Assembly: GCA_016176415.1 (NCBI GenBank)
Contig: JACOXH010000008.1
Location: forward strand, 1-32,325
Source: Candidatus Daviesbacteria bacterium
GTDB taxonomy: Bacteria; Patescibacteriota; Microgenomatia; Daviesbacterales; UBA10151
DNA: 32,325 bases
Direction: 5' to 3'
The notes beneath the pieces are model-generated. The model made no database searches and had not been told where the DNA came from. It was given only the letters and a program-made list of their open reading frames with translations. The position numbers were made by a program, and so were the translations under genes. Below are positions 12,474 to 28,158 of this stretch, piece by piece (position 1 is the first letter of the stretch; every line of letters begins with the position of its first letter).

Positions 12474-12896
12474 ATGGCCAAAAAGGTAAAAACATTAATT
12501 AAACTAAATATTCCTGCAGGCACCGCTACACCTGCTCCTCCTGTTGGCCCTGCTTTGGGACAACATGGTTTACCTATTATGGAGTTTGTTAAAGCTTTTA
12601 ATGATAAAACCCAGGACAAAAAAGGCAATATTTTGCCGGTAGTAATTACAGTTTACGAGGACCGGACATTTTCATTTATCACCAAAGAACCTCCTGTTGC
12701 TGAAATGATCAAAAAAACCTTAAGTTTGGAAAAAGGTTCAGGCACTGCTTTAAAACAACCTGTAGGAACCTTAACACAAGCTCAGGTAAAACAAATAGCA
12801 GAAGCTAAGCTGCCTGATTTAAACACTAAAAATGTAGAAGCTGCTATGAAAGTAGTAGAAGGCACTGCAAAATCAATGGGGGTAAAGGTACAATAA
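12474..12896 (+). CDS. rplK: 50S ribosomal protein L11 (uL11)
   Basis: 140 aa, the standard length. N-terminal domain [20 protein letters not shown] with [23 protein letters not shown]-terminal RNA-binding domain with [21 protein letters not shown] and [18 protein letters not shown]. It forms the GTPase-associated centre with 23S rRNA and L12. The frame is open from a TTG at 12450, but the ATG at 12474 gives the family's N-terminus. Stop and rplA start overlap as TAATG. Confidence 0.96.
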
Positions 12897-13717
12897 TGGG
12901 ACGACCAAAAATAGCAGTTATTGATGATTCAGCAGCAGAAGAGTCAGAGAGTCAGAGAGTCAAAAAGAGTCAAAGGGACTCTGACTCAGTTGACTCTAGC
13001 GAGCTAAAGGCGAGCGATGACTCTAGCCCGAAGGGTGGTGACTCTAAAAAGGCTACTGCTAAATCTCAAAAACCCGGCAAAGCCAAACCAAGAAGCAAAA
13101 AGTACCAGGAAATCTCCAAAGATCTGGACAGAAGCAAAACTTACCCTTTAAATGAAGCTTTGGAAGTTGTAAAAAAATTATCCTACTCTAAATTTGAAAG
13201 CTCTTTAGAGGCTCACATTAACACTGCTCAAACAGGAATAAGAGGCTTGGTTTCTTTACCCTTTGCTTCTGGTAAAAAACTTAAAATTTTAGCTTTTGGT
13301 GAAGATGCCAAAGATTCAGGGGCAGATGTTATAGGAACTGATGAAGTTATAGAACAAATTAACAAAGGTAAGGTTGATTTTGATTTAGTGGTAACTACCC
13401 CTCAATGGATGCCCAAACTGGCTAAAGTAGCCAGAATTTTAGGGCCCAGAAGCTTGATGCCTAATCCTAAAAATGGAACAATCACTTCTGATCTAAAAAA
13501 AGCAGTAGAAGGCTTTCAGGCCGGAAAAACAGAATATAAAACAGAATCAAAAGCTCCTGTTATACATATAACTTTGGGGAAATTAAACCAGCCGACAGAG
13601 GAACTTTCAGCCAACATTAAAACACTGGTTCAAACTGTAGGAAAAACCAGAGTTAAAAAGATTTCTCTTACCCCCACCATGGGACCATCTGTTAAAGTGG
13701 ATCTGACTTCTGTTTAA
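12896..13717 (+). CDS. rplA: 50S ribosomal protein L1 (uL1) with repeat-derived N-terminal extension
   Basis: 273 aa, about 40 more than usual. The L1 body starts near residue 68 (KKYQEISKDLDRSKTYPLNE) and contains the rRNA-binding signature RSLMPNPKNGTIT and the C-terminal GKTRVKKISLTPTMGPSVKV. Residues about 15-50 are Ser/Asp/Lys-rich (SESQRVKKSQRDSDSVDSSE) and encoded by GACTCT/AGAGTC repeats. The start ATG overlaps the rplK stop by one base, so translation is coupled. L1 shapes the L1 stalk and in many bacteria represses this operon. Its 3' end overlaps the convergent flippase gene by 26 nt. L10-L12 do not follow directly, as they usually do. Confidence 0.95.
   Translation: MGRPKIAVIDDSAAEESESQRVKKSQRDSDSVDSSELKASDDSSPKGGDSKKATAKSQKPGKAKPRSKKYQEISKDLDRSKTYPLNEALEVVKKLSYSKFESSLEAHINTAQTGIRGLVSLPFASGKKLKILAFGEDAKDSGADVIGTDEVIEQINKGKVDFDLVVTTPQWMPKLAKVARILGPRSLMPNPKNGTITSDLKKAVEGFQAGKTEYKTESKAPVIHITLGKLNQPTEELSANIKTLVQTVGKTRVKKISLTPTMGPSVKVDLTSV
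12941..13050. repeat. GAGTCAGA / GACTCT repeats inside the rplA extension
   Basis: A tandem GAGTCAGA run (12941-12961) faces CTCTGACTC (12979-12987) to form a 9-bp stem. Then TGACTCTAGC occurs twice (about 12991 and 13017) and GTGACTCT once, between small hairpins such as CCCGAAGGG. All are in frame within rplA, consistent with expansion or insertion of short repeats in a permissive part of the gene. Confidence 0.55.
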
Positions 13718-14687
13718 AAACTTTTTTCCAGACTACCCCTAAATTAATTTTTAAAAAGTATATTGATATAAGTCCAAAGATCAATACAAAAATGGCAGAC
13801 AAAACATGAAATAATACTGTCATTGCTGAAGCAAAGTTTGGCTCTATACCAAATACTCCTGAAAGTATCAACAGTCCCGAAGCTTCAGCTGAACCTACAT
13901 AACCCGGAGCTGCAGGCACAAGATATGTTAAAGCTGACAAAAGCTGCCCTAAATACATCTTTACAAAGCTTTGATTTACCCCCAAAGCTACAAAAGTAAA
14001 ATACCAAATAGCTGCATCAGCAGCATAAGCCAGGACTGTTACCCCCATCATTAACCCTAAATCTTTTGGGTGTCTGTTTAAAATAGAAAAAGACTCTAAA
14101 ATGAAGGTTGTAAACCTATCAAAATATATCTTAATAGACTTTATTATTAAAAAACTCCTCAAAAAATTGAACAACTTTCTGGCAGCACTTACCCTGCGAA
14201 CAATCAGATAACTTAAAATCAGAGAAAACACCAGTAAAATACTAATTACAGTTACGAATGTCATATTCAAAGTAGTCGGCACTACGAAAAATAATATACT
14301 CGCCAAAAGCAGCACTGCCAGAAAATCCACAAACCTGTCTATAAATATCCAAATCACAGATTTTCCCAGGGGCAGATTATAAGTGGTGTTAAGATAAACC
14401 CCTTTTAAAATCTCCCCTGCCCTTACAGGTATAAAGAAATTTAGAATCTGGGCTGCCCCATTTAGAAAAATTAAATCCAAAAGCTTAATCTTTTTGATTT
14501 CAGACAAAAAAATTTTAAGCCTTACAGCTCTGATAACCGGAGAAAGCAGCATAAAGAAAAAAACAGGTATTAAATAATAAATGTTTACTTTGGATAAATT
14601 AGAGGCAATTTCACCCAAATTTACAAATCTGGACCAGATGAAAATTAAAATTACACCTAAAATTGTATTGAAAAGGATTTTAACCAT
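13692..14687 (-). CDS. Flippase-like membrane protein (LPG synthase TM / AglD family)
   Basis: A 331-aa protein with about eight membrane helices and the family's conserved points: PVIRAVRLKIFL in the first loop, FLNGAAQILNFFIPVRAGE (Asn-Phe-x-x-Pro-x-Arg-x-Gly-Glu) near 75-93, FIDRFVDFLAV, and a C-terminal YLVPAAPGYVGSAEASGLLI. This is the integral membrane domain of lysylphosphatidylglycerol synthase without the catalytic C-terminal domain, as in AglD-type proteins. Likely role is movement or modification of lipid-linked sugars or phospholipids; the substrate is unknown. Convergent with rplA (26-nt overlap) and divergent from the dockerin gene. Confidence 0.85.
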   Translation of the reverse strand: MVKILFNTILGVILIFIWSRFVNLGEIASNLSKVNIYYLIPVFFFMLLSPVIRAVRLKIFLSEIKKIKLLDLIFLNGAAQILNFFIPVRAGEILKGVYLNTTYNLPLGKSVIWIFIDRFVDFLAVLLLASILFFVVPTTLNMTFVTVISILLVFSLILSYLIVRRVSAARKLFNFLRSFLIIKSIKIYFDRFTTFILESFSILNRHPKDLGLMMGVTVLAYAADAAIWYFTFVALGVNQSFVKMYLGQLLSALTYLVPAAPGYVGSAEASGLLILSGVFGIEPNFASAMTVLFHVLSAIFVLIFGLISIYFLKINLGVVWKKVFKQKSDPL

Positions 14688-14688
14688 A

Positions 14689-14716
14689 TTGCCAACTCTG
14701 CTAAATTAAATATACA
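14689..14716 (+). promoter_or_regulatory. Promoter of the dockerin protein gene
   Basis: TTGCCA (14689-14694), a 16-nt spacer and TATACA (14711-14716). The hexamer ends 8 nt before the ATG at 14725. Confidence 0.5.
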
Positions 14717-14724
14717 CTATTTAT

Positions 14725-15606
14725 ATGTTTACAACTTTAACACAAAAGATACTTTTAGGAGTATATGTCTTTGTTTTAGTGTCAATTCCTGTAGGAGCCT
14801 ATTTAGTATCCCAGTCTCAAACTACCAAAAGCGAGGCAACCCAAAAAGCGCCTAAAACAATAGCGCAGGTAACACCCCGTCCTCTCCCTACCCCTATAAA
14901 ACAGCTGCTTAACGCTTCAGCAGATCAAGCCTCAAAATCAGGAGCTTTGGGAACAATAACTTCTTCACCCGAACCCTCACCCTCCACTCCCACCATTGCT
15001 ACTTCTTTTGGCCCGACCATGAGTTTTAAAGTTAGCATTGAAGGCAGGCCCGCTGCAAATCAGGCAGCCAAAGTATTCGTGGGTATTGCCGAAGGAACTT
15101 TAACTTCAAATCCTAAATTTCTGCTTAATTTTAATGTTGACGTACCTGCTTCAGGTGAATATTCAGGCCTTTCTTTGGCAGGACTGACCACCGGGTCGAC
15201 ATATACGGCTTTAATCAAAGGCCCTGCTCAACTTGCAAGTACAATTTCTTTTACTATGTCTCCCACAGTTACTAATTTAAATGGCGGCGAAGCGGTAAAA
15301 TTAACCAGCGGAGACTTAAATGATGACAATGTAGTAAACACTGCTGACTACTCTATTGCCCAAAAAGCAGCAGGCACTGCTCCCGGGTCATTAAACTGGA
15401 ATGAAAATGCAGATCTAAATAAAGACGGCCTGATTAATGCTTTTGATTTAGGAATTATTTCCAAAAACATGGGTAAAACAGGACTATCAGGGGCATGGAC
15501 TTCTCCCCTCCCCAAAGTTGCTACCCCCTCTGCCAGCCTTAATTCCCCACCAGTGGGAGGACCACAGGAAGAAGATAACGGCTATTGGATTTGGATACCA
15601 AAATAG
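14725..15606 (+). CDS. Membrane-anchored dockerin type I domain protein
   Basis: 293 aa. A hydrophobic segment at about 9-29 (ILLGVYVFVLVSIPVGAYLV) is a signal anchor. A Pro/Ser/Thr linker follows (45-95), then a beta-rich domain at about 100-190 (MSFKVSIEGRPAANQAAKVF...). At 195-255 are two dockerin calcium loops: GDLNDDNVVNTADY and ADLNKDGLINAFDL, each with the DxNxDxxxNxxD spacing. The C-terminus is Pro-rich, ending NGYWIWIPK. Dockerins normally dock onto cohesins; none is visible in this window, and single dockerin pairs also occur in unrelated surface proteins as calcium-stabilised modules. It is followed 66 nt later by the giant exported protein, suggesting a joint surface role. Confidence 0.8.
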   Translation: MFTTLTQKILLGVYVFVLVSIPVGAYLVSQSQTTKSEATQKAPKTIAQVTPRPLPTPIKQLLNASADQASKSGALGTITSSPEPSPSTPTIATSFGPTMSFKVSIEGRPAANQAAKVFVGIAEGTLTSNPKFLLNFNVDVPASGEYSGLSLAGLTTGSTYTALIKGPAQLASTISFTMSPTVTNLNGGEAVKLTSGDLNDDNVVNTADYSIAQKAAGTAPGSLNWNENADLNKDGLINAFDLGIISKNMGKTGLSGAWTSPLPKVATPSASLNSPPVGGPQEEDNGYWIWIPK

Positions 15607-15609
15607 TTC

Positions 15610-15638
15610 TTGACAAGTATTTTGTTTTAATTTACGCT
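15610..15638 (+). promoter_or_regulatory. Promoter of the giant exported protein gene
   Basis: A perfect TTGACA (15610-15615), a 17-nt spacer and TACGCT (15633-15638). Start near 15645 leaves a leader of about 28 nt, so this gene is an exception to the leaderless pattern. Confidence 0.5.
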
Positions 15639-15672
15639 TAAATTAAGCAGATAAATACAGACGGGTCAACCT

Positions 15673-18600
15673 GTGGTTAACCCAAAAAATTTATTTAAAG
15701 CCTTTGTTGGTTTTTTAGTTGCAGTTTCTACCTTCTTTTCTCAACCTGTTTTTGCTTCGCAAAACCAATATTTTGACTATGGTCCGTATTATTCAACCCC
15801 CTCTGTTTTAGGATTGTCATTATCAAGCCTGGAAAACCTGCCTGTTCCAAAAATACCGGATAATTTAATGCCTGCTCCAGCCAAAGGAATCCTCCCGGGC
15901 AATCTGTTTTATGGCCTGGAAAGAGCATGGGAAAATACTCAGGTTGCTTTCACCTTTAACCCTGTTGCAAAAGAGGAGTTAAGATTAAAACAGGCCGAAG
16001 AAAGATTAAGCGAAGCTAAAAGCTTAATGGACCAGGGCAAAATCCAGGCTGCTTCTCAAGCTTTGGGTGATTACGGCAGGACTATCAATGACATTGCCGA
16101 AAACCTGACCGCAATTGCTAAAATCAATACTCCGGCATCCCAGGATCTTATTAATAAGGTAGAACAGGCTGCCGCTGCCCAAACCGTAGCTGCTACTGCT
16201 TTAAGTTTATCTACTACTCCTGCTCAAGCTGAAAACTGGACAGATGCAGGCAATGCCTCAAGAGATGTTTTGGATAAAATTGCCGAAAGTCGGGGCGAGC
16301 CGGCTATTCCGGAAAACCTCTCAACAGGCCTGCAGCAGCTGAAAGAGCAGGGCCTAATTTCAGAAGAAGAAAGCAATAAAATCTATGGATTAAAAAACCG
16401 GAGTGAAGTCAGGGAAGAATTAATCAGATTAAACTCTTCCGGTGGATTGCCCCCTTCAGAAATTGCCAGACTTGATGAAGGTGTTTCCAAATACTATCCC
16501 GAAGTCCAAAACCAGCAAATTGCCAACTGGCAGATTGTAGAACTGCGCTCTTACCAGGCCCGAACTCAACCCACCCAAAAACAAATTGAAGAGATGGAAA
16601 AGTGGCAGGATAACCCTAACACACCCCCCTCAAATGATATCAAACCTTATCTTTGGTACAACAGAGCCCGGGATTTAGCCAAAGAAGTTGATTTGTCAAA
16701 CTTTTCGGAGAACCAGCAGGCAGATTTGTCTAAATATTATTCGCAGATCCAGGATAATCCGACATACTCACCTCCCCCCACACCCTCTCCCAGCCCGGCT
16801 CCCGTTGCCAGCCCTTCTTCCTCTGATGATCAAACAGTTACTCCCTCACCCCTTGCCTCACCATCTCCTTCTGCTACTCCTGTCCCTGCTGATCCGTACC
16901 TACAAGACCCCGGCGCCTTACCCGGTCAACCTACATATATTATAAAGCAGTTTGGGGAAACCTTCAGTTCAGCCCTTACTTTTAACGCCACCGAAAAAGC
17001 CAGACTGCGTTTCGAGCAATCCGAACGCCGGCTCGCCGAAGCTGCTGCTTTATCAAAAGATCCCAAAAAAGCCGGTCTTTACGAGTCAGCCTTAAAAGCT
17101 TACCGGGAAACTTTAGCTGATGCCTCAAATAAAGTCAAAAATCTACCGGAAGGAAGAGAAGCCAGAAAAGCAGCAGAGAAACTGGAAGCTCAAGCCTCAA
17201 GACACGAAGTAATTTTTGAAAAAGGACTGCTTCCTGCACCTGCTAAAAACCCAAAGCTTTTGGCTGAAGTAATTAAGACCACCGAGGATGCTTTGGATAA
17301 AAGCGCGGATGCATTGGGTCGCCCGGCTGTGCCTCCTATTTTAGCTTCGCGTTTGGATGATTTGAAAGCTCAGGGACTCATTTTAGAAGAAGAGGTTCAG
17401 AATCTGGTAAATTCCAACTCCAGAGAAGAAACCCGCGAAAAAGTACGGGAACTGGTTGAGCAAAAAGGCTTTCCTTTAGCAGATGCAAAAAAGCTGGATG
17501 AAGCCCAATCCCGTATCTCCCCTGCTGACTACAATCAACTGGTTGAAGTCAGAAAAGTCGAAGAATTGCAAAACTTAAGGGCAGTCCAGACTGACTTGGC
17601 CCAAACCCCGACTTTAAAGGCGCAGGTTTCCACTTTAGGACAAAAAGAGGCAATATTAACTAATTCTTTTGACCCAAGCCTGATCAAACCCGAGGATTTA
17701 AAAGGCAGAGAAAATCTGGTTAAGGCTTACGATAAACTCTCCTCTATTGCAAGACCCATCAATGGCGGACAATTTGGAGCAGAAGCCACACCCGGCGCTC
17801 AACCCATAGTTACTCCACCTGCACCTGGGGACGCCGCCCTAACCACTTGTCCTGAAGGAGCAACTTTTAAGCAATCAGAGGGTTGTGTTTGGGCAGAAAC
17901 TGGCAAAAAAATCAATGATTATGACCAATATAAGTGCGACGGTCCCGGGCAATATTATTCTTTTGCTGCCAAAAAATGCGTGGATTATGATCCAACCAAA
18001 GGTTATCAGGAAGACAGCCAGCCCATTTGTCCTGTAGGTTACCAATGGAGCTGGCAAAGCCAAAGCTGTCAAACTTCTACCGGCGGGATTTTACCTTATC
18101 CCAGCCCCAGCGCCGAGCCTGAACCAAAAGATGATCAGGAACGGGAGGAAAGATCGAAAAGTTGTCCGGAAGGTTCTTCCTATCAAGCGCCGAACGGCTG
18201 TGTTTGGGACGATAACGGCAAATCAGTCTATGATCCGCAGCAGTACCGCTGCAATGGGCGCGGTCAATATTATTCTTTTGAAGAACACAAGTGTGTAGCA
18301 GCGCCCAAAGAAGGAGAAGCATATCCTAAAGATACTGCCCCTGTCTGTAAAGAACAGGGAACTTTCTGGAATTGGTCAGTCGGCAAATGTCTGCCACCAC
18401 CCCAATCATCCGGTGACGAAACCAGGATTACCGATGAAGTTAAACCGGCTTTTGTCGCCCGGGGAAATCCATTGTACTTCTTAAAACAGGCAGGAGAAAG
18501 AGCCCAACAATTTCTGGCTTTTACTCCACAAGCCAAAGAGCAAGTCAGCCTTGCTCACGCCAAAGAAAGACTTGCCGAAGCAATTGACGCTTTAAAGAAA

Positions 18601-21360
18601 AATGATGAAAAAGAAGTCAAAAATGCCTTAAACTCTTACACCACCACGATGCAAAATCTGGTAAGTGATTTGTCTAAACAAAATCTTGGAGAAAATACTA
18701 AAAAAGAAATTGGTAAACGGTTAAGCGAACAGGCAGCCGAACAAAATTTGCTGCTGCAAAAACTTCAGGCGCTGGCGCCGGCTGAACAGGATATTCCAAT
18801 CAGTGCTGCTGTATCAGCTTCAATTTTAGGGGTAGATAAAGCAGCGGATATTGCAGGAAAACCGGCGATTCCTGATGAGGTAAAAAGTAAAATCGAAAGC
18901 CTGCCGGAAGATATGATTTCCGAAGAAGATAAAAAAACGCTTTTGGAAACTGATTCACGGGTAGATGCCAGACTCAAATTAAGCGGTCTTATTCAAAACG
19001 GAGCTTTAACCCAAACTGACAGCAAATTTTTAAATGAGGATTTTGATGCAGCCCCCAAACAAGCCAAACTCAAGGTAGAAGAACTGAAGAAGCTGGAAGA
19101 AATTGCTACTGCTTCAGACGATAAAGAAAAACTGGTAGAAAAAGTTACCAAAAATGAAGAAATTGCTCAAAAGTTACAGGAATTTGAAAATACTTTTGAG
19201 GTAGGTAAGGAAGTTCCGGCTGAAATCCGCCCCTATGTCAGACTGACCAGAATCAACGAGGTGGCTCAAACAGTGAGACCTGACATTGTCAGGCTGGAAG
19301 ATTTCCAAAACCGCAAAGACGTGCTTTTGGCTGTGGCAACACTCCAGGAAGAGTTTAAACCTACAAAGGAATCATGGGCAAGGGTGGAAGATTACAGAAG
19401 AAGAAACCCTTATTCACCTTTACCGCCGGAGCTGGCCCGGATCGAAGCCTTGTCTTTTAGTTTAGGAGTGAGAAATCAAGCTGAAAGCTGCTACTTACCT
19501 ACCCCGCCTTTCCCAGCCAATACTCCCTGCCCTGCCCCGGGCGCAGCCATCCCAATTACCTCATATGCCAGTTATAACATCGCTCCTGCCTATGAGGATT
19601 CTGGCAGTCTGGCGCCTGCAAGGGATAAAGATGGCAAACCTTTTGTCTATGGCCAGGGTCCTGCTACTAAAAGCGCCGGCATTTGTCCGGATGGCTATCA
19701 TTGGATGTATGATAGCGGTGGTTGGTGTATGAACAATACCGGCAACTACAGCTCATCTTACAACTACACGCCAACAGGACCGCAAACTGCCGGATACACT
19801 CCTTACAGTCCGTACTATAATGCTCCCGGCGCGCCTCCGGCTACTTACGGCTACCCCACAGGCGGCAGCTTCTCCGGCTCACCCTACTCATATAGCCCAC
19901 CCAGTTATTATGGTCCGGGTTCCACCGCCTATACCACTACCCCGCCTCCCGGCACAGTTCCCGGTTCAGGACCCAGACCTACGGCCCCTGGCCGGTGCCC
20001 GTCCGGTTTCCACTGGATGTCAGATTCAGGTGGCTGGTGCATGGCTGATGGTCCGACTTATGTAGCTCCCGGCGCTTACCCGACCGGAACCGCTACCAGC
20101 GGAACACCTCCTCCGGGGGGTTATAATTGCGGCAGCCAGCCTTACGATCCGATCACTAAAAAATGTAAAGACGGCGCTTGTCCGGGCGGGTTCAACTGGG
20201 ATGGCTCAAAATGCGTATCAGGCGGTTATTCCAGCAGTAATTATATCTATTCCGGCTCTTCGTATCCCAGCTGTCCACCAGGTCAGTATTATTCCAACGG
20301 GACTTGTGTAAACTCCTCAACAGGATCTGTCAATTGCGGCAGCGGGTATTCCTGGAACGGCTACAGTTGCCAACCTTCATCCGGACAAGGATCAACATGC
20401 ACTTATCCTGCCGGAGGCTGCCCTGGTGTTGGAGCCTGGTATGATTATTCCAGCTGCAGTTGCAAGACAACAACTTCCGGCGGCAGCTACTATTCTCCCA
20501 GCTCATACCAGTATGGTTGCACCCCTGGTTATTACTGGAACGGCTCAAAATGTGTGGCAGGCAGCAATGAAGGTTCAGGTTGGTCAGATACTGCTGCCAG
20601 GTCCCAATCCTGGTGTCAGCCTCCCTCAAACGGCTGTGGCTCTAATTCTTACTGGGATTATGGCAGTTGTTACTGCCGAAGCTCAAGCACTTATTATGGA
20701 GGTAGCGGTCCCTCACCCAGCAATCAATGCCAGGGTCTAAGCTGTGGCGGAGGCGCATGGTTAGATTACTCAACCTGTAGTTGTAAGTATTCAGGTGGTT
20801 CCGGAACTACCCCTACAGGATCTCCCATCACTTGTTATCCTCCTTCTGCAGGTTGCCCGGGCGGCTGGTATGACTATGGCACTTGCAGCTGCAAAACCAG
20901 CTACTCCGGCACAAGCTCCGGTTCAGGCGGAAGCAGTTATTGTTCTCCTCCTGGCGGAGGATGCGGTTCAGGCTGGTGGGATAGCGCCTCCTGTTCCTGC
21001 AGACAGGCTTCATCACAAGGATGTTCCAACGTATCAGCATCAAGTTGCGGGTCAGGTTGGTACTTTGATTCTGCAGCCTGCACTTGCCGTCAGAGTTCAA
21101 CAAGCAGCGGATCGACCTCCGGCGGAACTTCCTCAGGCGGCTCATCGACCGGTTCTTGCCCTTCAGGCTATCACTGGATGTCTGAAAACGGCGGTTATTG
21201 CATGCAGGATGGCGGAGGCGGAGGCGGATCAACTTCTACGTCAACTACCACATCCCAACCTTCAACTTCAGAACCGGCCCCTGCGCCTACCAGCGCTCCG
21301 GCCAGCGAACCGGCTCCTGCTCCCCCCTCGGAACCGGCACCAGCCCCTTCCGGCGGGTAA
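15673..21360 (+). CDS. Giant modular exported protein: three DUF5667 blocks plus Cys-rich modules
   Basis: 1,895 aa. Signal peptide at 1-29, with likely cleavage after PVFA. Three DUF5667-like helical modules at about 74-150, 417-490 and 930-1005; each opens with G(N/Q)xxYxxxxxxE and contains a helical run such as EELRLKQAEERLSEAKSLM. Each is followed by about 200 residues with a shared helical pattern (P-A-I/V-P, then GLI.EEE.......SR.E.R.KL). Two Cys modules with CPEG...GCVW...GQYYSF..(K/H)KCV lie at 726-780 and 831-880. The last 560 residues are Gly/Ser/Tyr/Pro-rich: three copies of CPxG(Y/F)HWMxxxGG(W/Y)CM (near 1338, 1443, 1829) and about eight GxWYDY.SCSCK units (1577-1810). The tail is Ser/Pro/Ala/Glu-rich; no LPxTG signal. 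GTG start. Likely a surface adhesin or sheath protein; function unknown. Confidence 0.82.
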   Translation: MVNPKNLFKAFVGFLVAVSTFFSQPVFASQNQYFDYGPYYSTPSVLGLSLSSLENLPVPKIPDNLMPAPAKGILPGNLFYGLERAWENTQVAFTFNPVAKEELRLKQAEERLSEAKSLMDQGKIQAASQALGDYGRTINDIAENLTAIAKINTPASQDLINKVEQAAAAQTVAATALSLSTTPAQAENWTDAGNASRDVLDKIAESRGEPAIPENLSTGLQQLKEQGLISEEESNKIYGLKNRSEVREELIRLNSSGGLPPSEIARLDEGVSKYYPEVQNQQIANWQIVELRSYQARTQPTQKQIEEMEKWQDNPNTPPSNDIKPYLWYNRARDLAKEVDLSNFSENQQADLSKYYSQIQDNPTYSPPPTPSPSPAPVASPSSSDDQTVTPSPLASPSPSATPVPADPYLQDPGALPGQPTYIIKQFGETFSSALTFNATEKARLRFEQSERRLAEAAALSKDPKKAGLYESALKAYRETLADASNKVKNLPEGREARKAAEKLEAQASRHEVIFEKGLLPAPAKNPKLLAEVIKTTEDALDKSADALGRPAVPPILASRLDDLKAQGLILEEEVQNLVNSNSREETREKVRELVEQKGFPLADAKKLDEAQSRISPADYNQLVEVRKVEELQNLRAVQTDLAQTPTLKAQVSTLGQKEAILTNSFDPSLIKPEDLKGRENLVKAYDKLSSIARPINGGQFGAEATPGAQPIVTPPAPGDAALTTCPEGATFKQSEGCVWAETGKKINDYDQYKCDGPGQYYSFAAKKCVDYDPTKGYQEDSQPICPVGYQWSWQSQSCQTSTGGILPYPSPSAEPEPKDDQEREERSKSCPEGSSYQAPNGCVWDDNGKSVYDPQQYRCNGRGQYYSFEEHKCVAAPKEGEAYPKDTAPVCKEQGTFWNWSVGKCLPPPQSSGDETRITDEVKPAFVARGNPLYFLKQAGERAQQFLAFTPQAKEQVSLAHAKERLAEAIDALKKNDEKEVKNALNSYTTTMQNLVSDLSKQNLGENTKKEIGKRLSEQAAEQNLLLQKLQALAPAEQDIPISAAVSASILGVDKAADIAGKPAIPDEVKSKIESLPEDMISEEDKKTLLETDSRVDARLKLSGLIQNGALTQTDSKFLNEDFDAAPKQAKLKVEELKKLEEIATASDDKEKLVEKVTKNEEIAQKLQEFENTFEVGKEVPAEIRPYVRLTRINEVAQTVRPDIVRLEDFQNRKDVLLAVATLQEEFKPTKESWARVEDYRRRNPYSPLPPELARIEALSFSLGVRNQAESCYLPTPPFPANTPCPAPGAAIPITSYASYNIAPAYEDSGSLAPARDKDGKPFVYGQGPATKSAGICPDGYHWMYDSGGWCMNNTGNYSSSYNYTPTGPQTAGYTPYSPYYNAPGAPPATYGYPTGGSFSGSPYSYSPPSYYGPGSTAYTTTPPPGTVPGSGPRPTAPGRCPSGFHWMSDSGGWCMADGPTYVAPGAYPTGTATSGTPPPGGYNCGSQPYDPITKKCKDGACPGGFNWDGSKCVSGGYSSSNYIYSGSSYPSCPPGQYYSNGTCVNSSTGSVNCGSGYSWNGYSCQPSSGQGSTCTYPAGGCPGVGAWYDYSSCSCKTTTSGGSYYSPSSYQYGCTPGYYWNGSKCVAGSNEGSGWSDTAARSQSWCQPPSNGCGSNSYWDYGSCYCRSSSTYYGGSGPSPSNQCQGLSCGGGAWLDYSTCSCKYSGGSGTTPTGSPITCYPPSAGCPGGWYDYGTCSCKTSYSGTSSGSGGSSYCSPPGGGCGSGWWDSASCSCRQASSQGCSNVSASSCGSGWYFDSAACTCRQSSTSSGSTSGGTSSGGSSTGSCPSGYHWMSENGGYCMQDGGGGGGSTSTSTTTSQPSTSEPAPAPTSAPASEPAPAPPSEPAPAPSGG

Positions 21361-21371
21361 TCATCAGGGTA

Positions 21372-21399
21372 TTGAACATTGAAAAAAATGTGATACAAT
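21372..21399 (+). promoter_or_regulatory. Promoter of rplJ-rplL
   Basis: TTGAAC (21372-21377), a 16-nt spacer and TACAAT (21394-21399), preceded by TGa as an extended -10. Start near 21406, giving a leader of about 125 nt. Confidence 0.55.
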
Positions 21400-21405
21400 T
21401 ATTTA

Positions 21406-21530
21406 GCTTGAGACAGTGAGTCCTTCAGAGAACAATCTGATCGTAAATCTCACCGAGGTGTAAACTAGTGACTAGGGTTTAGATTGCTATACCCCTAACC
21501 CCTAAAAACTCCTCGAAAGGAGTTTTTTTA
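21406..21530 (+). promoter_or_regulatory. Ribosomal protein L10-type leader
   Basis: A 125-nt untranslated leader before rplJ. It contains CTCACCGAGGTG (21451-21462), resembling the GCCGAGGUG segment of the L10 leader known from Gram-positive bacteria, with paired segments such as GTTTAG/CTAAAC-like words around it, and ends in an intrinsic terminator. In the known system the L10-L12 complex binds the leader and favours termination. Assignment is by resemblance and position. Confidence 0.55.
21506..21529 (+). terminator. Attenuator hairpin directly before rplJ
   Basis: AAACTCCT-CGAA-AGGAGTTT followed by T to 21529; the rplJ ATG is at 21531. The stem also contains AGGAG, which would serve as the Shine-Dalgarno sequence 8-12 nt before the ATG, so the hairpin could control both termination and translation. 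Confidence 0.75.
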
Positions 21531-22058
21531 ATGGCAAAAACACGAGCGCAAAAAGAAGAACAAGTTAACAAATTGACAGAAAAATTAAGCCGTGCCAAGG
21601 CTTTGGTTTTTGCAGACTATAAAGGCATGAGCATGAAGCAGTTATCAGATTTAAGAGATAAACTGCGTGAACAAAATGCAGAGTTGTCTGTAACCAAAAA
21701 TACTTTGCTTGAACGCGCCTTTCCAGCTTCCAGCTTCCAACCTCCAGCCCCTAGCTTACAAGGTCCAACTGCTACCCTATTTGCTTATGATGATGAAATT
21801 TCCCCTATCAAACTACTTGTTAAAACATTAAAAGACCTCTCTATTGGAAAAATCAAAAGTGGTTTTTTAGGGACAAATCCTTTAGATGAGGCAAAAATTA
21901 TACAACTTTCTACCCTGCCTACCAAAGATGAATTAAGAGGTAAAACAGTAGGAGTTTTGGTCGCTCCTTTGCAAGGCATACTTTCGGTTTTGCAGGGTAA
22001 TTTAAGAAATTTAGTGTACGCGCTTTCAGAAATACAAAAACAGAAGGGGGGTGTTTAA
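21531..22058 (+). CDS. rplJ: 50S ribosomal protein L10 (uL10)
   Basis: 175 aa. N-terminal rRNA-binding domain [20 protein letters not shown] with [23 protein letters not shown] and [12 protein letters not shown]-terminal helix that carries L12 dimers ([20 protein letters not shown]). Residues about 64-80 ([15 protein letters not shown]) are a Pro/Ser-rich insertion encoded by CCAGCTTCCAGCTTCCAACC-type repeats (21723-21752), where other L10 proteins have a short loop. The start follows an attenuator that also holds AGGAG. rplL follows directly. Confidence 0.95.
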
Positions 22059-22059
22059 A

Positions 22060-22617
22060 TTGTCAGACGACACACAAGCACAAGCAGAAGAAGTGAAAAC
22101 TGAGGAAGCCCCCGTGGAGGAAGTGAAGGCTGAAGAAACACCCGCTGAAGCTCCCAAAACAGAGGAAACTCCCAAAGAATCCAAAAAAGAAAGTAAGCAA
22201 AGCTTGCGATCTAACGATCTTAAAGCGGTTTCAGCAAGCCTGGAAAAGATTATAGAACAGATTGAAAAATTATCAGTTTTAGAACTTGCTGATTTAGTTC
22301 ATGCTTTAGAAGATAAATTTGGTGTTTCCGCTTCAGCTCCTGTAGCTGTAGCAGCAGGCCCAGCAGCCTCCGGAGCAGCAAATGGCGAACCAGCAGAAGA
22401 AAAAACAACCTTCAATGTTATTTTGGCTTCAGCTGGAGCTAATAAAATTGCAGTTATTAAAGCTGTAAGAGAATTAAATCAAACTTTGGGTCTTAAAGAA
22501 GCTAAAGATTTGGTAGAAGCAGCTCCAAAACCTGTAATGGAATCAGTTAATAAACAAACCGCTGAAGAAGCTAAGACAAAATTGACAGCCGCGGGAGCCA
22601 CTGTAGAACTACAGTAA
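22060..22617 (+). CDS. rplL: 50S ribosomal protein L7/L12 (bL12) with long acidic N-terminal extension
   Basis: 185 aa from the TTG at 22060; bL12 is usually about 120-125 aa. Residues 1-60 are Glu/Pro/Ala/Lys-rich repeats ([19 protein letters not shown]). They end in [12 protein letters not shown], encoded by a palindromic repeat unit. The dimerisation domain is near 63-93 ([20 protein letters not shown]), the hinge is Ala/Gly-rich, and the C-terminal domain includes [20 protein letters not shown] and [17 protein letters not shown] is chosen because AGGGGGG lies 9 nt upstream; a GTG at 22051 is the alternative. The last 60 nt of the gene are duplicated at 22702-22761. L12 recruits translation factors to the ribosome. 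Confidence 0.94.
22196..22225 (+). repeat. Double-hairpin repeat unit in frame inside rplL
   Basis: AGCAAAGCTTGC then GATC-TAAC-GATC and TTAAA: the same layout as the secE-nusG units, with a different second stem and loop. It is translated as [10 protein letters not shown] at the junction between the acidic extension and the L12 dimerisation domain. Confidence 0.75.
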
Positions 22618-22761
22618 TTCCACCTTCATGTTGGGTTTGTTTGCGAGAACTTCACTACTATCAAAATCGTTGTTTTGATAGTGTTCCGTTCTCTAAAAGC
22701 TACCGCTGAAGAAGCTAAGACAAAATTGACAGCAGCAGGCGCAACAGTGGAGTTGCAGTAA
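22558..22761 (+). mobile_element. Probable remnant of an element integrated at the 3' end of rplL
   Basis: The last 60 nt of rplL (22558-22617) recur at 22702-22761. The first 32 nt (22558-22589 and 22702-22733) are identical. The remaining 28 nt differ at nine positions, all synonymous, and both copies end AAGATVELQ-stop. Between the copies are 84 nt with a nested hairpin (22645-22693: GAGAAC/GTTCTC outside, CTATCAAAA/TTTTGATAG inside) and no ORF. This is the signature of site-specific integration that restores a gene with a recoded 3' end, as with phages in icd; here only the junctions and a small core remain. No integrase is present. Gene conversion with a divergent rplL is the alternative. 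Confidence 0.6.
22702..22761 (+). pseudogene. Displaced 3' fragment of rplL
   Basis: Encodes [19 protein letters not shown]-stop, identical at protein level to the rplL C-terminus but with nine synonymous base differences in its last 28 nt. It has no start codon or upstream frame. It is probably the original gene end, cut off by the insertion. Confidence 0.75.
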
Positions 22762-22771
22762 TCCATTCGTT

Positions 22772-27342: not shown

Positions 27343-27381
27343 AAAGTTACTTAAGTCACTTAGGTTACTTAAGTTACTTAT
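27343..27381. repeat. Tandem 9-nt CTTAAGTNA repeat between PEGA and sortase genes
   Basis: GTTACTTAAGTCACTTAGGT followed by TACTTAAGTTACTTA: about four 9-nt periods. The sortase TAA stop lies inside it. It is upstream of the PEGA promoter and would provide its -35 region. Confidence 0.7.
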
Positions 27382-28079
27382 GAACTCACTAATCTAGCTC
27401 TGACAATCAACCTTCTTAGCAGTGTACCGGGCGGATCGCAAGTTTGCAGAGTTAAAACAGGAGCATCGTATTTATTGGTCAGATATGAAATATCAGTGGG
27501 ACTGACAATTGTTTTATCAAATACCACATAATCATATCTTCTGTTCTGGTAGAAAATAATTATTTTATCTCCCGGTTCAAGCTCTCTTAAAAGAAAAAAT
27601 ACAGCATTGTAACGGACAATATTCCAGGGAGCATCTGTAGAGTGAGAAAAAAGGTATAAATTACCGGGTTGTCCGGGCAAAGTTGAACCTGCAGCTGCTG
27701 CTACCCCCTCTTTTAGGGCAGTCAAATACTCCCTTTCGTTGGCAGGATTAACGTCAGGGACAATTTTGGCATTGGCATTAATTTTTTCAATTACAATGCC
27801 ATAGTCTGTAGAAGCAGGAATAATAGAGTTTTCTGAAGCAGTAACATTACTAAAATCAACCGGTGCGCCCTGTCCGTTATCCTGAGGGGGTGCAGCAGGT
27901 TGGGCAGGAGTTACTATATTAGGTACAGTTCTTTTAACCCCTTTAAGTTTATCTATTCTGTAACTGGCCTCTGTTTGCACTACCGGTCCCAGCATAAAAA
28001 CAATGCTGGACAAGCCCAGCAAAAATACAAAGTAACCTAAAAAACGGATCAAAAGTATTATTTTAAAACGCTTAGTCAT
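27378..28079 (-). CDS. Sortase
   Basis: 233 aa from the ATG at 28079. Membrane anchor at about 8-32, a Pro/Gln linker, and a sortase domain at 90-233: catalytic His146 (LYLFSHSTD), Cys214 (TLQTCDPPGTLLRR) and Arg222/223 or 227. TLQTC is the family's TLxTC active-site strand. It joins exported proteins carrying a sorting signal to the surface, or cleaves them; no LPxTG-like protein is evident here. The longer frame to 28106 runs into tRNA-Arg, so the ATG at 28079 is used. It lies 6 nt after the tRNA 3' end with no promoter between, so it is likely co-transcribed with the tRNA. Confidence 0.9.
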   Translation of the reverse strand: MTKRFKIILLIRFLGYFVFLLGLSSIVFMLGPVVQTEASYRIDKLKGVKRTVPNIVTPAQPAAPPQDNGQGAPVDFSNVTASENSIIPASTDYGIVIEKINANAKIVPDVNPANEREYLTALKEGVAAAAGSTLPGQPGNLYLFSHSTDAPWNIVRYNAVFFLLRELEPGDKIIIFYQNRRYDYVVFDKTIVSPTDISYLTNKYDAPVLTLQTCDPPGTLLRRLIVRARLVSS

Positions 28080-28085
28080 TCTAAG

Positions 28086-28158
28086 TACCCCTGGAGGGAA
28101 TTGCACCCCCGGCCAACCCCTTAGGACGGGGCTGCTCTATCTACTGAGCTACAGGGGC
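28086..28158 (-). tRNA. tRNA-Arg (CCT)
   Basis: Acceptor GCCCCTG/CAGGGGT (first pair G-T), D stem GCTC/GAGC, anticodon loop GTCCTAA (anticodon CCT), discriminator A, no encoded CCA. The T loop is TGCAATT: G replaces the nearly universal U at position 55, so the usual T-loop/D-loop contact may be altered. It reads AGG. The flanking genes are on the same strand with 6-9 nt gaps. Confidence 0.9.

Follow-up and report, generated by a model that had tools for sequence, protein, structure and literature searches.

The gene and its genomic place

The window, that is the whole stretch of DNA analysed here (32,325 nucleotides), represents one entire contig of a Candidatus Daviesbacteria assembly that comprises 675,768 bp in 17 contigs and is 84% complete. 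The close relatives that carry names are Candidatus Daviesbacteria, several of them of groundwater origin, and these Microgenomates are ultra-small bacteria. On the forward strand, a single open reading frame at positions 15673–21360 starts with GTG, runs without internal stop codon and encodes a giant exported protein of 1,895 amino acids; all parts of the protein described below refer to this strand. The GTG codon aligns with the ATG start codons of homologues, and the 5,688 bases account for 17.6% of the window, in agreement with the ~18% given by an earlier sequence-only reading. Comparison with the nearest relative yielded dN/dS ratios of 0.09–0.18 in each region of the protein and a second pair behaved alike, these ratios being approximate because synonymous sites are well diverged. 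Taken together with the intact full-length homologues, these values show that the reading frame is real and conserved, beyond what chance would produce.

The gene is located between rplA (L1) and rplJ (L10), where it follows a membrane protein gene and, directly upstream, a gene for a dockerin-type protein identified by Pfam (14725–15606, forward strand). Relatives devoid of the giant retain the dockerin gene at this site, often directly before rplJ, and the link between the two genes is therefore positional only. A dockerin partnership of the giant was rejected for this reason. Among Daviesbacteria, L1 and L10 are 1.9–9.5 kb apart, and this gap or its surroundings contain other large exported-type proteins, e.g. 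one of 2,413 amino acids in the gap of another genome of the genus (G009). The rplA–rplJ interval (window 12896–22617; loci L044–L058) is insertion-prone for large exported-type proteins in Daviesbacteria, and the size of the giant, which had been considered striking for this lineage, is not unusual at this site.

In most of the Daviesbacteria carriers examined the giants adjoin rplJ-rplL. Outside Daviesbacteria, no conserved neighbours were seen for 10 proteins scanned, with the exception of a Levyibacteriota contig (L105) that carries the giant beside rplJ-rplL. Between the giant gene and rplJ, neither an L10 leader nor any other RNA element was detected at gathering score, and scans for promoters and terminators gave results only moderately above shuffled sequences and were set aside. 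Just downstream of rplL, positions 22696–22762 of the window contain a partial repeat of the rplL 3' end.

Export signal and termini of the protein

The N-terminus carries a predicted signal peptide (15673–15759) with cleavage expected after VFA at about residue 28, as judged from hydropathy and from inspection of the A-x-A motif. It has a positively charged n-region, and no strong hydropathy peak occurs elsewhere in the protein. A conserved Y[YF]DxGPYY...[VI]LG motif follows the predicted cleavage site, and in homologues, too, the A-x-A site stands directly before the Y[YF]D residues. Hence the hallmarks of a Sec/SPase I substrate, i.e. n-region, hydrophobic core and A-x-A site, are found by inspection and hydropathy across homologues. 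Cysteines are confined to exported modules, and the same cysteine modules are also present in other signal-peptide-type proteins. These features uphold the signal peptide and the export proposed in the sequence-only reading, and Sec export with removal of the signal peptide is a well-supported prediction. No known cytoplasmic family matched the modules, and none of the evidence spoke against export.

The protein ends in a cysteine-free stretch rich in Pro, Ala, Ser, Thr and Glu (21223–21357) that contains neither an LPxTG motif nor a transmembrane segment. A sortase gene is present in the window at 27378–28106; an LPxTG-like motif and a hydrophobic C-terminus, as used for sortase anchoring, are both absent from the giant. 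The mature N-terminus lacks a lipobox cysteine, the first cysteine of the protein being residue 726. As neither LPxTG, lipobox nor C-terminal membrane helix was found, the giant might be released. In four proteins, including a giant and a DUF5667 protein, we observed a C-terminal tail in which V[QRE]G[AVT]S[TK] precedes a short terminus of amphipathic or hydrophobic character (end of the giant in L100, up to 14095; L127:2431–4089; L026; L020). This tail, which may be a surface-retention signal, is absent from the window giant.

Helical blocks and cysteine modules

The long N-terminal part is organized into three helical blocks. Block 1 (15886–16707) was delimited by Pfam and block comparison and contains a DUF5667 domain at residues 72–165, with the block extending to about residue 345. 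Block 2 (16888–17778; DUF5667 at residues 414–511) and block 3 (18445–19470; residues 931–1032) were assigned by Pfam and AlphaFold. DUF5667 (PF18915) matches the whole protein with 144 bits (2e-42) in three stretches above the Pfam gathering score of 27 bits, and the single domains score 75, 54 and 51 bits, which bears out the three DUF5667 blocks described before. In an AlphaFold model of residues 405–1300, blocks 2 and 3 are all-helical with pLDDT values of about 80–90 (mostly 70–93 in block 2), and the cysteine modules between them appear as beta-hairpins. The three blocks of the window protein share 26–31% identity with each other. In a tree they form three separate, well-supported clades, each monophyletic across genera; thus, the triplication predates the split of these genes.

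DUF5667 is a domain without known function, for which no paper turned up in the literature searched. The giant resembles DUF5667 proteins in that its three domains pass the curated cut-off and in that small exported-type DUF5667 proteins are encoded in the same genome, but it differs by combining three long blocks and cysteine-hairpin modules in one protein. The models suggest that DUF5667 may serve as a stalk-forming block.

All 54 cysteines of the giant reside in 21 short hairpin-type modules, and the helical blocks have none. Two six-cysteine modules with the elements CPEG, GQYYSF and CPVGYQW (17848–18390; residues 726–906), each predicted from the AlphaFold model and the cysteine pattern to form three beta-hairpins, are both placed between blocks 2 and 3. 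A cysteine-free Pro/Ser-rich linker (16708–16887) connects block 1 to block 2, so that the placement of such modules between the blocks, as originally described, holds for blocks 2 and 3 only. From residue 1267 onwards follows a Gly/Ser/Tyr-rich tail of short hairpins. It includes three HWM hairpins recognized by their motif, namely CPDGYHWMYDSGGWCM (19684–19731), CPSGFHWMSDSGGWCM (19996–20043) and CPSGYHWMSENGGYCM (21157–21204), as well as a region of Gly/Ser/Tyr linkers, simple C-x10/11-C hairpins and six C-x(4-8)-C-x(8-12)-C-x-C modules (20128–21087), whose copy number differs among homologues. The HWM...CM and WYDY..CSCK units of the Gly/Tyr/Cys-rich tail were thus recovered; however, the modules are of more than the two kinds counted previously: besides the two six-cysteine modules, which together comprise six hairpins, and the three HWM hairpins, there are six C-x(4-8)-C-x(8-12)-C-x-C modules and another six hairpins of the simple type. 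Apart from these small errors in the placing and kinds of modules and in the weight given to size, the sequence-only reading was a good account of the protein.

Cysteine makes up 2.8% of the giant and 9.7% of its tail. The low-confidence model of the tail (mean pLDDT 57) resembles a disordered string that carries the hairpins like beads. Of 13 complete distinct giants, 11 have an even number of cysteines, as do all five complete single-block relatives; since the proteins are related, this is supportive only. Confinement of cysteines to exported modules and their mostly even numbers agree with the proposed disulfide-type repeats. VKOR is encoded in the source genome, and no VKOR match was obtained in the giant carriers G014, G028, G035, G012 and G052; VKOR as an obligatory partner was rejected in view of its absence from several carriers.

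The number of modules is variable. Six Daviesbacteria homologues that are 58–76% identical to the window giant contain 54, 48, 42, 34, 40 and 32 cysteines, respectively; the body is conserved and the variation resides mostly in module number. The C-x(4-8)-C-x(8-12)-C-x-C module is in addition portable, as it occurs in 13 tandem copies in an 849-amino-acid protein that has a hydrophobic segment at its C-terminus (L128) and in three copies in a 553-amino-acid protein (L127).

Relation to known proteins

DUF5874 (PF19202) scored 16.2 bits against the whole protein and 18.2 bits against the tail alone, both below the gathering score of 27.1 bits. No fold match was obtained in PDB or among the viral models of BFVD at E <= 0.001, and no sequence relative in PDB was convincing. 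The closest precedent is provided by large, cysteine-rich, exported proteins of groundwater CPR bacteria, the Peribacteria, which have on average 1,655 amino acids and 7.2% cysteine, include a 14-gene cluster, vary between strains and have been proposed to function in attachment (PMC4736985). The likeness is one of description, and the giant differs by its 2.8% cysteine, its occurrence as one gene and its DUF5667 blocks. Giant extracellular proteins of fructophilic lactobacilli are likewise very large surface proteins of bacteria with small genomes; yet they comprise 3,000–8,000 amino acids and are encoded by five genes in a row (PMC12863079), and again the resemblance is one of description.

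Distribution and mosaic structure of the giant gene

When 95 genomes were searched, 38 had some match and nine, including the window's genome, had long matches. A profile search of 374 genomes of the class returned matches in 48; three-block giants occur in several families, and single-block relatives of 650–950 amino acids are found in other families. Across the phylum (380 genomes), giants were restricted to the window's own class, and four other classes had DUF5667-sized matches. In this sample the family is confined to one class, the Microgenomates, with carriers named Daviesbacteria, Levybacteria, Blackburnbacteria, Gottesmanbacteria and Woykebacteria. The search for the HWM motif in other genomes that had been suggested earlier was carried out at the DNA level: 12 of 281 genomes matched and a reversed control gave 0, all matches lying inside giants and, in one case, in a fragment of the tail where a contig ends. 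A contig labelled Dehalococcoidia (L092; JAUYHV010000314.1) encodes a giant 57% identical to that of the window in the best segment and is probably a misbinned CPR contig. On a Levybacteria contig, a single-block DUF5667-type protein of 693 amino acids with no cysteine is encoded directly upstream of the giant (L103:4631–6709).

A tree built from L11, L1 and the membrane protein shows the carriers dispersed within a single bacterial family, and their placement needs five changes. Patchiness by itself could also come from losses. Comparison of a Blackburnbacteria giant (L095) with a Daviesbacteria giant (L091) in 60-residue windows revealed 22–63% identity, mostly below 50%, before residue ~600, as compared to 57–88% from there to residue 1480. 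A max-chi2 scan placed a break at window residue 614–615 in L095, L096 and L099, with none of 2000 shuffles scoring as high. Across this break, nucleotide identity between L095 and L091 rises from 50% to 75% and pS falls from 0.79 to 0.61, and since pS drops, the change in identity is not due to constraint only. The L1 proteins of the same two genomes are 42% identical, and GC at fourfold-degenerate sites amounts to 44% in the giant gene versus 23–39% in the other window genes measured. These observations jointly indicate that the giant gene is mosaic, having probably undergone horizontal exchange with intragenic recombination between Microgenomates lineages. Assembly chimerism is possible for any single copy; the same break is common to three copies from separate assemblies. 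In the window's own copy, max-chi2 detected no such break against L090/L101 or L091/L101, and one significant break against L089/L090, which falls into the repeat-rich tail, a region of uncertain alignment. Large cysteine-rich exported proteins were known before in CPR bacteria; the mosaic exchange is the new and testable point.

Possible function of the giant protein

How can these features be accommodated in a single picture? In our preferred explanation, which we consider to have about an even chance of being correct, the giant is a multi-domain contact protein, secreted or displayed on the surface, that resembles an adhesin. Following Sec export and removal of the signal peptide, the step with the best support, the three cysteine-free DUF5667 blocks would, going by the models, form a long stalk or spacer. 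The cysteine pattern and the hairpin models suggest that some 21 disulfide-locked, Trp/Tyr-rich beta-hairpin modules may provide a robust multivalent contact surface; most of them would be strung along a flexible Gly/Ser strand, so that gain and loss of modules could tune reach and avidity. The gene appears to move between Microgenomates lineages and to swap segments by recombination. Cell-surface traits often move between lineages and recombine, and the combination of a conserved stalk, module turnover and exchange between lineages is the pattern expected of a contact protein. Contact might finally be made with another cell, a surface or a polysaccharide, as we infer. The adhesive role in host attachment put forward in the sequence-only reading is therefore plausible and strengthened by variation in module number and by exchange with recombination, with adhesion itself being deduced indirectly.

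The same blocks and disulfide hairpins could instead make up a coat, sheath or extracellular matrix by which the cell surface is strengthened, with no specific partner involved. The repeats, the Gly/Ser/Tyr-rich tail, the many disulfide-type modules and the lack of a recognised anchor or ligand-binding domain would suit such a structural envelope or matrix protein. However, a single gene with long matches in a minority of relatives (nine of 95) does not look like a core coat, and recombination between lineages fits interaction proteins better, for which reasons we regard this explanation as rather unlikely. The sheath that had been suggested along with adhesion found nothing specific in its favour, given one gene and patchy carriage.

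More specifically, the hairpins might bind carbohydrates in multiple copies, working like the chitin-binding CBM14/peritrophin-A domains, with which they share a short disulfide hairpin with aromatic residues. Among known domains, CBM_14 (PF01607) was matched most often by the hairpins of residues 715–915, where the CPxGxxF....GC(V)W hairpin matched the second half of the profile in 11 of 14 homologues with a best E of 0.0059, and none of 10 cysteine-preserving shuffles matched CBM_14. In Avr4, which is a CBM14 protein, the Trp that stacks on the sugar immediately precedes the second cysteine of a hairpin disulfide (PMC6128652), an arrangement resembled by GGWC of the HWM module. But the giant reached 16.0 bits over profile positions 25–49 of 53, below the gathering score of 22.1 bits, with another cysteine pattern and with similarity over one hairpin only. 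Matches of 13–17 bits are moreover background across the relatives' genomes, none of 95 exceeding the cut-off; one shuffle gave E=0.002 with another short cysteine family, and a profile search found no CBM14 structure. Membership in CBM_14 was rejected on account of the sub-threshold, background-level score, and carbohydrate binding, for which this score is a lead only, appears improbable. Still less credible, indeed very improbable, is a cell-surface scaffold of the cohesin-dockerin type assembled from the giant and its dockerin-type neighbour. It would draw on the adjacency of the two genes, on a protein with dockerin next to the giant in G028 and on two cohesin matches in the genome, but the Pfam scan detected neither cohesin nor dockerin in the giant, and the neighbour stays where it is when the giant is missing. 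The two cohesin matches of the source genome are adjacent (G000:C12:65852–66678) and, along with the dockerin protein, possibly constitute a small cohesin-dockerin system in a CPR bacterium.

Returning to the contact protein, a bolder and doubtful extension, which we put forward tentatively, is that the giants represent an undescribed Microgenomates family in which DUF5667 stalks and portable, disulfide-locked aromatic hairpins are traded horizontally and segment-wise between CPR families and set the specificity for partner or surface in presumed episymbionts. To our knowledge, the means by which uncultured CPR lineages such as Daviesbacteria hold their partners are largely unknown. The giant family provides a concrete, conserved candidate for partner attachment in CPR bacteria, and HWM...GGWCM offers a diagnostic DNA signature that occurred, among the 281 genomes scanned, only in those with the giant or a tail fragment. 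The mosaic copies, in turn, allow asking which segment sets partner specificity.
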